Positions 1,427 to 55,325 of a stretch of DNA of 64,000 nt are shown here, one piece after another. Each line of letters opens with the position of its first letter. Within the stretch, counting starts at the first letter, position 1. The DNA lies in NCBI RefSeq assembly GCF_001887595.1, contig NZ_CP017480.1, forward strand, positions 4,554,001 to 4,618,000, in the 5' to 3' direction. This DNA is from Luteibacter rhizovicinus DSM 16549. GTDB taxonomy: Bacteria; Pseudomonadota; Gammaproteobacteria; Xanthomonadales; Rhodanobacteraceae. The notes beneath the pieces were generated by a model. That model was not told the DNA's origin. It saw nothing but the letters and a program-made list of their open reading frames with translations, and did not search any database. A program made the translations under genes and the position numbers.

Positions 1427-2110
1427 ATGCTGCTCGACCCTGCCCGACTGGAGCGTCCCGACACCGACATCCGGCATGAACCGTTTTCGTTCATGATCGC
1501 CCACGGCCAGCTACCGGACGAATCGCGCAACGAGCTGGAACGGGACTTTCCCCAGTACACCAGCGCGGGATTCTTCCCCTACGACGCCAGCGACTGCGGC
1601 CCGTCGGTGAACGAACTGGTCGAACAGATGACCTCGCGGGCGTTTTCCTCGGCCATCGGGCGCCATCTGGGCATTCCCGGCCTGGCGGACTACCCCACCC
1701 TGGTCACCCTGTGCCGGCTGCTCAACCGCCGCCACGGCACCATCCACACCGATAGCAAGTCGAAGATCGCCACCGCGCTGATCTACCTCAACCCGATGTG
1801 GCCGGACACCAGCGACGGCTGCCTGCGCTTCCTGGCCTCCATCGACGACATCGACAACACGGTGGCGCCGGAGCTCAAGCCGCTCTACGGCGAGTTCGCC
1901 GTGTTCCGCCGCGCCGAGAACTCCTTCCACGGCCACCTGCCCTACGAGGGCGAGCGCCGGGTCATCCAGGTCGCCTGGCTGACCTCCGAGGAAGAAAAGG
2001 CCCGCAAGACCAAGCGGGGCAAGTTCTCCCGGGTGTTCAAGAAGATCTTCGGCAAGCTCGACCGCCAGCACGGCGCCGGCCGCGACCGCAGCGCCAGCCA
2101 CCGCGACTGA
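1427..2110 (+). CDS. 2-oxoglutarate/Fe(II)-dependent oxygenase family protein
   Basis: This 227-residue soluble protein has a jelly-roll oxygenase pattern. A HxD pair (His107-Thr-Asp109) sits in the context GTIHTD, a distal iron-binding His168 in SFHGH, and Arg177 in EGERRVIQ, where the 2-oxoglutarate carboxylate is normally held. The family hydroxylates proteins or small molecules using Fe(II), O2 and 2-oxoglutarate. The substrate cannot be told from sequence. The C-terminal 35 residues are rich in Lys/Arg. It is transcribed divergently from carA, with about 216 bases between them for both promoters. Members of this family are often annotated as proline hydroxylase-like. Confidence 0.85.
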
Positions 2111-2259: not shown

Positions 2260-3270
2260 TCAGTGAGCGCCGAACCACCAGCCGACGAACAGCGCAAACA
2301 CCCCGTACAGCCCGCCGATCGGCATCAGCCAGCGCGCCTCGACCGACCCACGACGGAACATCGCCCACAGCGCTACCACGGCGACCATGGTGACGCCGCC
2401 GGCTACGATCAGCGGCGTATCGAACAGCCACGGGGTGGCAAACAGCGCCAGCGAACTCGGAATCGTCGCCTGGATCATCATGGCGCCCGAGATGTTCGCC
2501 AGGGCCAGCCGCTCCTTGCCCTGCCGCACCCAGATCAGCGCATTCACCGTCTCCGGCAGCTCGGTGGCGACCGGGCTCAGGACCAGGGCGACGATATGCG
2601 GCGACAGATGGAAGAAGTCGCCGAGCGCCTCGAGCTGCCAGACGAAGGTGCGCGAGGCGATGGCGATGACGACCAGCGCCAGACCGGTCTGCAGCATCAC
2701 CCAGTTCATCGAGGGATTGGCGTCATGCGGACGGAAGGTGAGCGGTTCGAGCTCATCTTCCCCCTCGGGCGCGCTGGTGTCGTCGCGCATTTCGCGCCAG
2801 ACGTAGGCCACATAAGCCAGCAGGAAGAGCACACCCAGCCACGGCTTCCACGCAAAGGCGACCAGGCCGAGGCCCACCTTCACCACGAAGATGGCGAGGA
2901 ACCAGGACTGGTCGCGCGCCAGTCGCTTATTGTCCACGCGCACACGCAAGTCCGGCCTTTTCAGTCGCTTGCGGCCTGCATATAAAGCAAAACCGACGAC
3001 CGCATAGGCGATCGTGGCGAGCACCAGCGGGCCACCCAGGGCCGCACCGACACCGATATCCCGGGCTGCCGGGGTCTTGCCGAACATGACGGCGACGAAG
3101 GTCACCGCGCTTTCCGGCAGTGCCGTGCCGAAAGCGGCAAGCACCGTACCGGTAGCCGTGGCGCCGAGATTGAGCTTGCGCCCGAACCATTCGACGCCGT
3201 TGACGAAGTACTCGCAGGCGAAATAGATAGCCCCGGCCGAAACCAGGAACAAAAAGCATGTCAGCAGCAT
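2260..3270 (-). CDS. CaCA-family cation antiporter, probable Mn2+ (or Ca2+) exporter
   Basis: This 336-residue integral membrane protein has the two inverted alpha-repeats of the sodium/calcium exchanger family: GTALPES at 48-54 in the first half and ATELPET at 235-241 in the second. Both keep the ion-binding Glu. About ten hydrophobic segments are separated by an acidic cytoplasmic loop (about 162-185). The family exchanges Ca2+ or other divalent ions for Na+ or H+. Here the mRNA leader is a yybP-ykoY riboswitch, which senses Mn2+, so manganese export is the inferred role. The start codon lies 10 bases after a perfect 14-bp hairpin and has no obvious Shine-Dalgarno, which fits translational control. 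It could instead be a Ca2+ exporter placed under Mn2+ control. Confidence 0.88.
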   Translation of the reverse strand: MLLTCFLFLVSAGAIYFACEYFVNGVEWFGRKLNLGATATGTVLAAFGTALPESAVTFVAVMFGKTPAARDIGVGAALGGPLVLATIAYAVVGFALYAGRKRLKRPDLRVRVDNKRLARDQSWFLAIFVVKVGLGLVAFAWKPWLGVLFLLAYVAYVWREMRDDTSAPEGEDELEPLTFRPHDANPSMNWVMLQTGLALVVIAIASRTFVWQLEALGDFFHLSPHIVALVLSPVATELPETVNALIWVRQGKERLALANISGAMMIQATIPSSLALFATPWLFDTPLIVAGGVTMVAVVALWAMFRRGSVEARWLMPIGGLYGVFALFVGWWFGAH

Positions 3271-3280
3271 GTTTTATCTA

Positions 3281-3333
3281 GGGCCGGGCGAGCGAGATAT
3301 ACCGATGGCACAGCCACACCGCTCGCCCGGCCC
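3281..3333 (-). promoter_or_regulatory. expression-platform hairpin of the Mn2+ riboswitch
   Basis: On the minus strand GGGCCGGGCGAGCG (3333-3320) pairs perfectly with CGCTCGCCCGGCCC (3294-3281), a 14-bp stem. It ends 10 bases before the antiporter start codon. No U-tract follows, so it is better read as a translation-controlling or anti-structure element than as an intrinsic terminator. Confidence 0.6.
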
Positions 3334-3344
3334 GGGTAAGCATG

Positions 3345-3475
3345 TCGCTGGCCAAAGGTCTCGCCGGGCGGGCAGCGCACTCTCCGGGCGCTGTGCCGTT
3401 CGCGCCATGGGGCACGAGGCCACCAAGTATGTTGACGCGAACTCCTCGGGGTAGAGGATGGCTACTCCCCAATGA
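3345..3475 (-). promoter_or_regulatory. yybP-ykoY (manganese) riboswitch aptamer
   Basis: Three conserved blocks of this riboswitch occur in the right order and spacing on the minus strand: GGGGAGTAGCC at 3470-3460, GTCAACATACTTGG at 3436-3423, and GCGAGACCTTTGGCC at 3364-3350. These are the two Mn2+-binding loop strands and the peripheral element of the yybP-ykoY aptamer. The class binds Mn2+ and switches on export genes such as mntP, MneA-type UPF0016 proteins and P-type ATPases. Downstream is the CaCA antiporter at 2260-3270. Recognition is from the motifs alone. Confidence 0.88.
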
Positions 3476-3531
3476 CTTCGGCGCGAATGTTAACACGCGT
3501 TCGAGGTATGGGTGGGCTCCCACAACGCTGC

Positions 3532-4326
3532 CTACATCTTGCTGGCGATGACGTCCTCGATGGACCAGGTGCCGGGGGCGCGGCCGGCGATCCAGTTGGC
3601 GGCCTCGAGCGCGCCGCGGGCGAAGATCGACCGGTCCGTCGCCCGGTGGGCCAGCTCGATCCGCTCGCCCTGCCCCATCAGCAAGGCCTGGTGCTCGCCG
3701 ACGATGTCGCCACCGCGGACCACGGCGAAGCCGATCGTGCCGTTCTTGCGCGCACCGGGGCGACCTTCGCGGGCATACACCGCCAGTTCCTCCAGCGTGG
3801 CGCCCCGACCTTCCGCAGCGGCGTGGCCAAGCGCCAGCGCTGTACCGGATGGCGCGTCTTCCTTGCGGCCGTGATGCGCTTCGACGATATCGAGGTCCCA
3901 GCCCGGCAGCGCGGCGGCGGCTTCGCGCAGCAGGCGCGTGAGCACGGCGACGCCGAGGCTGAAGTTGGCGGCGCGCAGCACAGCGATCCGCTCGACGGCC
4001 TTGGTCAGGCGATCTTCCAACGCGGGCTCGAGGCCGGTCGTGCCGGTGACGAGTGAGGCGCCCGACGCTTCGCAATAATCGAGCGCGGCGCCGAGACCGT
4101 CCGGGCCGCTGAAGTCGATGACGACATCGATATCGCCGGCGTCGGTCCAGTCGGTGAAGCGCAAGGCCGAGACATCGCCGAAGGCCGCCTTGCCCAGACG
4201 CGGCGAGCCGGACGAAACGATCGCGCGTACGAGTTCGAAGCGTTCGTCCTCACGCACGAGGCCGAGCAGCGCGGTGCCCATGCGGCCGGAGGCGCCGCTG
4301 ATGGCGAGACGGGCGGGACGGGTCAT
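3532..4326 (-). CDS. dapB: 4-hydroxy-tetrahydrodipicolinate reductase
   Basis: This 264-residue protein catalyses the NAD(P)H-dependent second step of the diaminopimelate/lysine pathway. The N-terminal nucleotide-binding loop is GASGRMG (11-17). The substrate site is the family signature around His151-His152 with Lys155 and the SGT triplet at 160-162. Length is normal. It follows dnaJ on the same strand after a 164-base gap holding a REP hairpin, so it may be transcribed with the heat-shock cluster only in part. Downstream lies the riboswitch leader of the antiporter. Confidence 0.96.
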   Translation of the reverse strand: MTRPARLAISGASGRMGTALLGLVREDERFELVRAIVSSGSPRLGKAAFGDVSALRFTDWTDAGDIDVVIDFSGPDGLGAALDYCEASGASLVTGTTGLEPALEDRLTKAVERIAVLRAANFSLGVAVLTRLLREAAAALPGWDLDIVEAHHGRKEDAPSGTALALGHAAAEGRGATLEELAVYAREGRPGARKNGTIGFAVVRGGDIVGEHQALLMGQGERIELAHRATDRSIFARGALEAANWIAGRAPGTWSIEDVIASKM

Positions 4327-4376: not shown

Positions 4377-4461
4377 TGTGGGAGCCGCTTTTTGTGGGAG
4401 CCGCTTCAGCGGCGATGCTCTTCCTACGAGCAAAAGCATCGCCGCTGAAGCGGCTCCCACA
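4377..4461. repeat. REP-type inverted repeat
   Basis: Half-copy TGTGGGAGCCGCTT at 4377 is followed by TGTGGGAGCCGCTTCAGCGG at 4393 and its inverted partner ending at 4461. Together they form a long hairpin between dnaJ and dapB. The inner spacer differs from that of the 2.1, 49.5 and 55.2 kb copies. Such a structure may stabilise or separate the two messages. Confidence 0.85.
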
Positions 4462-16289: not shown

Positions 16290-16685
16290 GGGGATGTTCT
16301 GGTTTCGACGGGGGTAGTGCGATCTACTGGTGCATGCCGAGGGGGTAGCTTTCCTCGTTAAACCAGCTGCAAAAACTATAGTTGCCAATGACAACTACTA
16401 CGGTAATGACGCTTCGGTGGCTCTCGCCGCCTAAAGCGTTCGGCCCCTAAAAAAGGCCCTACCCCCGAACCGATCTTGTGCTCATGCTCGTCGGTGTAGG
16501 GTCACTATCATGAGACCGCCGAAAGACTCTCCATCTGTGGGTCTGACGCTAGATCAATCAGGTATGTCCGTCGGTGCGCTTCGCACACCGTGCTGCTGGC
16601 GGACGAGATCTAACGGTGAGCTAAGCATGTAGATCTGGAGATTAAACGCCTTCGGACGCGGGTTCGACTCCCGCCATCTCCACCA
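16290..16685 (+). ncRNA. ssrA: transfer-messenger RNA (tmRNA)
   Basis: The 5' GGGGATG (16290-16296) pairs with CATCTCC (16675-16681) before the CCA-type end. GGTTTCGACGG lies near the 5' end and the T-arm GGGTTCGACTCCC is at the 3' end. The resume codon is GCC at 16384. The tag reads ANDNYYGNDASVALAA and stops at TAA 16432-16434. This resembles the Xanthomonas tag (ANDDNYGS...) and keeps the degradation signal ALAA. It follows smpB. Confidence 0.95.
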
Positions 16686-49485: not shown

Positions 49486-49567
49486 TGTAGGAGCCGATTC
49501 ATCGGCGATGGGTGCTCGCAGCAACCTGGCCCGCTCCCGCGGGATCGCCGATGAATCGGCTCCTACG
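49486..49567. repeat. REPIN-like element with conserved spacer
   Basis: TGTAGGAGCCGATTCATCGG at 49486 and its inverted copy ending at 49567. The spacer (TGGGTGCTCGCAGCAACCTG... to CCGCGGG) is nearly that of the 55243 copy and the reverse of the 2.1 kb copy. Confidence 0.85.
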
Positions 49568-55242: not shown

Positions 55243-55325
55243 TGTGGGAGCCGATTCATCGGCGAATGGGTGCTCGCGGCAACCTTGCCCGCCGCCGCGG
55301 GATCGCCGCTGAAGCGGCTCCCACA
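55243..55325. repeat. REPIN-like element with conserved spacer
   Basis: TGTGGGAGCCGATTCATCGG at 55243, then a spacer with TGGGTGCTCGCGGCAACCTT and CCGCGGG, then the inverted arm GCCGCTGAAGCGGCTC and CCCACA ending at 55325. Confidence 0.85.

Follow-up and report, generated by a model that had tools for sequence, protein, structure and literature searches.

We identified a CaCA-superfamily transporter gene directly behind a yybP-ykoY Mn2+ riboswitch in Luteibacter rhizovicinus DSM 16549, within a stretch of 64,000 nucleotides that was analysed as a whole and is referred to here as the window. Judged from its sequence and genomic setting, this gene very probably encodes a riboswitch-switched Mn2+ exporter of the CaCA fold that replaces MntP or UPF0016 in its family. 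Across the family, the CaCA gene alternates near-exclusively with MntP and UPF0016, and the window transporter is probably the main Mn exporter of L. rhizovicinus. The initial annotation had proposed a candidate Mn2+ exporter of an unexpected family. Tight linkage to the riboswitch and near-exclusion with the two other exporter types back the exporter reading, and the pairing of a CaCA gene with this riboswitch holds; its unexpectedness does not, since Bordetella BP3410 provides a precedent. Because BP3410 has been published (PMC8546581), the principle of a riboswitch-controlled CaCA Mn exporter is already known; the pairing now proves common across a bacterial family. The features of the locus are collected in Table 1.

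Table 1. Features of the riboswitch-transporter locus and its neighbours, in window coordinates.
Feature	Coordinates	Strand	Basis
2OG-Fe(II) oxygenase-like gene, convergent neighbour (context only)	1427..2110	+	PF13640
CaCA-superfamily transporter gene, 336 aa, candidate Mn2+ exporter	2260..3270	-	PF01699
14-bp hairpin (3281-3294 with 3320-3333)	3281..3333	-	sequence
Part of the hairpin loop with the P1.1 competitor (GCCAUCGGU at 3301-3309)	3301..3319	-	pairing analysis
Switch strand: P1.1 3' strand (ACCUUUGGC) and next bases CAGCGACAU	3342..3359	-	supported helix, RNAduplex
yybP-ykoY Mn2+ riboswitch (RF00080), aptamer and part of the expression platform	3290..3482	-	68.5 bits
L3-loop adenosine, counterpart of A48 in the X. 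oryzae aptamer	3430	-	comparison with A48
P1.1 5' strand (GUCAUUGG), overlapping the start of the GGGGAGUAGC core	3469..3476	-	RF00080 alignment and 42 leaders, read by eye
Probable -10 box TAACAT	3487..3492	-	box pattern across leaders
dapB, upstream neighbour (context only)	3532..4326	-	DapB_N + DapB_C

The leader passes a covariance check with RF00080, which it matches over the whole model (1-177), scoring 68.5 bits where the gathering cut-off is 45, with an E-value of 8.4e-16 in a search of the 64-kb window. Nowhere else in the 4.77-Mb L. rhizovicinus genome does RF00080 match at E<=0.001. The three sequence blocks on which the riboswitch had initially been proposed all lie inside the aptamer: 3460-3470 is its GGGGAGUAGCC core, 3423-3436 (GUCAACAUACUUGG) contains loop L3 with the Mn-sensing adenosine, and 3350-3364 (GCGAGACCUUUGGCC) contains the 3' strand of helix P1.1. 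The L3 adenosine is unchanged in 42 of 42 aligned leaders, an alignment drawn from the 102 leaders with a recognisable core, the seven most divergent (L134-L140) being left out. A Mn-sensing role for its counterpart, A48, is described for the X. oryzae aptamer (PMC6754395). Pairing between the 5' and 3' strands of P1.1 in the window leader retains U-U mismatches.

The gene directly downstream is of the sodium/calcium exchanger type, as first described, and its product scores 101.7 bits against PF01699 (cut-off 24.9) in two Na_Ca_ex stretches. A second PF01699 protein is encoded elsewhere in the genome, together with two TerC proteins above cut-off, and neither MntP nor UPF0016/GDT1 found a match there. 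Similarity to dapB occurs within the 1.2-kb flank of 56 of 80 CaCA loci, often in the order dapB, riboswitch, CaCA. At all three mntP loci examined (L061-L063; 13 genomes have MntP), dapB was absent from the flank, which leaves unsupported the idea that mntP and the CaCA gene were swapped at one dapB site. The window also contains a REP-like palindromic repeat (GTGGGAGCCGCTTCAGCGGCGA, up to 3 mismatches) in 11 copies versus 0.01 expected, at 2141-2244, 4394-4460, 13801, 38812, 49487-49566 and 55244-55324, with several inverted pairs among them, and a tmRNA gene at 16290-16685 (RF00023, 196.8 bits).

Linkage to the riboswitch extends to the CaCA genes of relatives. Among 197 genomes of the window's own family, RF00080 matched in 176 and the window protein in 104, the latter at 106 places (E<=1e-10). 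At 101 of these 106 places, among the matches listed, RF00080 lies 0-118 nt upstream on the same strand, a count that rests on 150 RF00080 places in 146 of the 176 genomes. The remaining places are varied. Genome G052 has RF00080 beyond the matches listed, and the aptamer core is visible upstream of its CaCA gene; G147 and G017 have no RF00080 match in the genome; the homologue in G191 is a fragment at a contig end without an RF00080 match; and the unlinked place in G107 is a second paralogue, 33% identical.

The same genomes also divide sharply by exporter type. MntP matched in 15 of the 197 (13 above cut-off and counted) and UPF0016/GDT1 in 84 (81 counted), giving 97 genomes with CaCA only, 77 with GDT1 only and 10 with MntP only. 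Seven have two types (CaCA and GDT1 in four, CaCA and MntP in three), and the six with none of the three are 78-94% complete. Two sub-cut-off MntP matches (G015, G117) and three weak GDT1 rows (G054, G069, G175) were dropped before counting; if they are kept, the figures become six for CaCA with GDT1, five for CaCA with MntP, 93 for CaCA only, 78 for GDT1 only and five for none. Fisher's exact test of CaCA against GDT1 or MntP gives p = 2.5e-39, a value that ignores kinship. One genus (g18) comprises 8 CaCA and 8 MntP genomes with zero overlap, and four others (g6, g9, g24, g26) are mixed too, which suggests more than one event. MntP places were tied to RF00080 in 2 of 13 cases among the matches listed.

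Between the aptamer and the gene lies the hairpin that had been noted initially, along with the lack of a Shine-Dalgarno sequence, and both descriptions are exact: the 14 pairs are followed by ten bases (3271-3280) up to the ATG, and nothing in those ten is Shine-Dalgarno-like. Across 42 aligned leaders, 98.0% of cells are paired in the hairpin stem and 91.9% in a helix formed by the switch strand and the hairpin loop. Together, these two elements show 12 pairs changed on both sides versus 4.0 in shuffled alignments, with none of 500 shuffles equal, although related sequences can beat every shuffle without real structure. The hairpin and the switch-strand helix stand in pseudoknot order. The hairpin is one part of an expression platform that allows the 3' strand of P1.1 to pair with the hairpin loop. 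Translational control of the window gene is plausible.

Pairing energies over a larger set of leaders point the same way. In 102 leaders, the switch strand pairs with its own loop at a mean of -20.0 kcal/mol versus -9.4 for shuffled loops (RNAduplex), a comparison in which the automatic hairpin finder settled on a different hairpin in a small number of divergent leaders (G032, G042, G166). A broader test, in which the switch strand was set against the next 82 bases, found pairing that stands out, with no more than 1 of 60 shuffles equally stable, in 79 of the 102 CaCA leaders of the family. With a threshold of at most 2 of 100 shuffles, it stands out in 10 of 13 CaCA leaders from outside the family, 12 of 13 UPF0016 leaders from within it, 19 of 28 UPF0016 leaders of Burkholderiaceae and 3 of 3 MntP leaders. 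The shuffles in the loop-pairing, broader pairing and -10-box tests preserve base composition only. Switch-strand pairing with the loop is common to MntP, UPF0016 and CaCA leaders (L061-L063, L002-L014, L018, L258-L286); since it also occurs ahead of UPF0016 and MntP genes, it is a property of the riboswitch rather than of the CaCA gene.

These observations are best explained by a switch. A rise in Mn2+ would dock the aptamer and stabilise P1.1, steps that are known from other species. Stabilised P1.1 would then keep its 3' strand away from the downstream hairpin loop, with which that strand would otherwise pair beside the start codon. Withholding the strand would raise expression, and the Mn2+-free, pseudoknot-like state may hinder initiation or elongation until Mn2+ relieves it. 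The product, a CaCA-fold secondary transporter, would expel Mn2+ from the cytoplasm and, in this family, fill the role of Mn exporter under riboswitch control in place of MntP or UPF0016.

As an alternative to such a switch, the hairpin might be a fixed structure, with control exerted only by early transcription termination in the leader, through Rho or pausing. This is possible, if somewhat doubtful. In B. pertussis, the BP3410 transcript ends within the riboswitch without Mn (PMC8546581). There is also little Shine-Dalgarno sequence to sequester, as the motif is weak family-wide (none in 43 of 104 leaders, 3 nt in 57 and a stronger match in 4), and in 23 of the 102 family leaders switch-strand pairing does not stand out in the broader test. 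Against these points, the hairpin loop covaries with the 3' strand of P1.1, and the leaders' own loops on average pair better than shuffled ones, both of which argue for the switch over a fixed hairpin. Two further candidates were rejected. A scan of 3240-3620 found no T-run terminator, and an intrinsic terminator is ruled out because no T-run follows the hairpin. A short frame at 3278-3343 on the minus strand has its ATG at 3341-3343 in the switch strand and its TAG 7 nt before the gene, and overlaps the hairpin; read by eye, many relatives have GTG, GCG or ACG as the start codon and a different frame, and a leader peptide was discarded.

The riboswitch and gene probably form a unit with its own promoter. 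A scan of 3240-3620 found no fitting sigma-70 consensus site. A TANMMT/TANVAT box, a pattern picked after the leaders had been seen, lies 14-26 nt upstream of the aptamer core in 92 of 102 leaders versus 35 of 2020 shuffled upstream sequences, and it is this -10-like box that suggests the promoter. Transcription of the window gene would start at about 3480.

Beyond the family, a scan of named genomes retained the best 80 of 560 loci. RF00080 reached its gathering score in 16 of 20 chosen loci, mostly outside the family or in metagenome-assembled genomes (MAGs), and failed to reach it in the other four (L165, L208, L211, L213). Eight of the 16 come from another family or order, namely Xenophilus, Chromobacterium and Acinetobacter isolates and five MAGs; linked examples include Acinetobacter nosocomialis (L221), Chromobacterium sinusclupearum (L220) and Xenophilus (L210). 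Relatives also occur on fifteen plasmid records, twelve of which were examined. Copies behind RF00080 were found in Massilia putida (L348), Azospirillum (L349), two Novosphingobium and Aeromonas caviae, and RF00080 also precedes distant homologues (31-32% identity) in Burkholderia arboris and B. cenocepacia. No RF00080 at E<=0.01 was found before the copies of Legionella fallonii, Streptomyces, Enterobacter, Natrinema or a second Massilia plasmid (L358). Massilia putida, from tungsten mine tailings, carries the same cluster of antiporter, repressor, DUF1289 and dmeF genes on two plasmids, each time behind an IS transposase, and RF00080 was found on only one of the two (L348, L358).

Wider samples set bounds on this distribution. 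In a class-wide sample, a relative at E<=1e-25 was present in 36 of 360 genomes, 35 of them unlinked and only the window genome linked, under stricter RNA search filters; in one genome of this sample (G222), RF00080 sits on another contig. Among 200 Burkholderiaceae genomes, the CaCA clade occurs in 3 and RF00080 in 114. Ninety Burkholderiaceae riboswitch loci (30, and 60 of 80 further places) were assigned by motif to UPF0016 (81) or MntP (8), with one too short to tell, and the window protein matched none of the 90 at 1e-3; the three CaCA places fall outside these loci. A tree of 60 proteins recovered a 27-row clade (SH-aLRT 100) with 24 riboswitch-linked and 3 unlinked rows, RF00080 not being seen for the members from G017, Streptomyces and L. 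fallonii. The linkage label changes 5 times on this tree versus 19.6 to 19.7 in shuffles; its branches are long, and the deep order is not to be relied on. The CaCA genes of B. arboris and B. cenocepacia (L355, L359) fall in a sister clade, as a second riboswitch recruitment on the tree.

The company kept by some of these genes raises another alternative, a broad transition-metal exporter (for example of Mn2+, Co2+ and Fe2+) that merely acquired a Mn2+ leader. Plasmid copies in Massilia are clustered with dmeF and a metal/formaldehyde-sensitive repressor, the Azospirillum copy lies near dmeF and the L. fallonii plasmid copy near a heavy-metal P-type ATPase, and the Burkholderia homologues of the sister clade gained the same riboswitch separately. 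The window gene, however, stands between dapB and the oxygenase-like gene with no adjoining metal-resistance gene, and RF00080 is the only regulator recognised there; we consider a broad-range exporter unlikely and favour one for Mn2+.

The ion site of the window protein differs from that of a Na+-coupled exchanger. NCX_Mj, the Na+/Ca2+ exchanger of Methanocaldococcus jannaschii, matches the window protein as a CaCA sequence over nearly its full length, and its Glu54 and Glu213 correspond to E53 and E240 (HMMER, MAFFT), one acidic residue per alpha-repeat, both kept in 105 of 105 family proteins longer than 300 aa. Six NCX_Mj residues that we take to line the Na+ sites (S51, S77, N81, S210, S236 and D240) have A50, G80, L84, E237, A263 and Q267 in their place, the last of these by a gapless reading where the HMMER alignment has a two-residue gap; position A263 is S in 6 of the 105 family proteins. 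With the two glutamates retained and the Na+-site residues gone, we infer that transport is coupled to protons rather than Na+. Unlinked relatives that were examined carry most of this non-canonical site, which was accordingly dropped as a mark of riboswitch-linked members, and the residues alone do not mean Mn2+.

CaCA members of known function move mostly Ca2+, and UPF0016 members may themselves move Ca2+, which leaves some room for a Ca2+ cargo here. A mainly Ca2+ (or mixed Ca2+/Mn2+) exporter under a general divalent-overload sensor, as for S. pneumoniae MgtA, where a yybP-ykoY aptamer binds both Ca2+ and Mn2+ and precedes a Mn2+/Ca2+ ATPase (PMC9495176), is nevertheless very unlikely, given the alternation of the CaCA gene with MntP and UPF0016, the second PF01699 protein that could handle Ca2+ in the window genome, and the authors' statement, with data not shown, in PMC8546581 that BP3410 is not induced by Ca2+.

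Taking the Mn2+ exporter further, we find the case for a broader account evenly balanced. A distinct CaCA clade would be a dedicated, probably proton-coupled Mn2+ exporter that lost the Na+ ligands, acquired E237 as its third glutamate and Q267, a glutamine, and repeatedly displaced MntP and UPF0016 behind a portable riboswitch cassette. In its pseudoknot-like switch, the 3' strand of P1.1 would pair either within the aptamer or with the apical loop of the hairpin abutting the start codon, and one regulatory RNA would serve unrelated exporters with its logic unchanged. The known ligand of the riboswitch gives the CaCA clade a testable substrate. Members with names are mostly called "sodium:calcium antiporter" or "cation:H+ antiporter" (best 120 listed), and Mn2+ export, if true, would correct many such annotations and provide a natural experiment on the shift of a CaCA ion site from Ca2+/Na+ to Mn2+. 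Additionally, with three exporter families alternating almost cleanly behind one RNA, it becomes possible to test how a riboswitch regulon evolves. Among open-licence papers, we found none on yybP-ykoY in Luteibacter, none joining sodium calcium antiporter, riboswitch and manganese, and none describing a CaCA clade without the NCX_Mj Na+-site residues or a family-wide alternation with MntP and UPF0016.

Several known systems resemble this locus in part. The YrbG/TIGR00367 calcium/sodium antiporters align with the window protein over almost its full length, and TIGR00367 is its nearest NCBIfam model; the score of 85.5 bits falls short of the cut-off of 179.65. Switching in this riboswitch class is known to run through helix P1.1, whose 3' strand joins a terminator in L. 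lactis (PMC11087558). In the window leader, the alternative partner of that strand would be the loop adjoining the start codon. Riboswitch-linked UPF0016/GDT1 (MneA, Mnx) and MntP share the aptamer class and the kind of platform with the window leader, and by mutual exclusion their genomic role equals that of the CaCA gene, but they belong to other protein families and are without a match in the window genome.

The closest counterpart is BP3410 of Bordetella pertussis, a calcium:cation antiporter whose expression Mn induces by way of a yybP-ykoY riboswitch and whose working form lowers cellular Mn about fivefold (PMC8546581). A 2023 review lists it as the Ca2+:cation exchanger type of Mn exporter (PMC9936198). 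Likened by description, BP3410 has a CaCA protein with two Pfam Na/Ca exchanger stretches and an RF00080 leader, as in the window, where the CaCA gene likewise lies directly under RF00080. The BP3410 promoter is placed upstream of the riboswitch, and the window gene would have its promoter there too. In about 98% of B. pertussis strains, a 30-bp duplication has knocked out BP3410; unlike it, the window gene keeps an open frame of 336 codons, in a lineage where such genes are the commonest Mn exporter.
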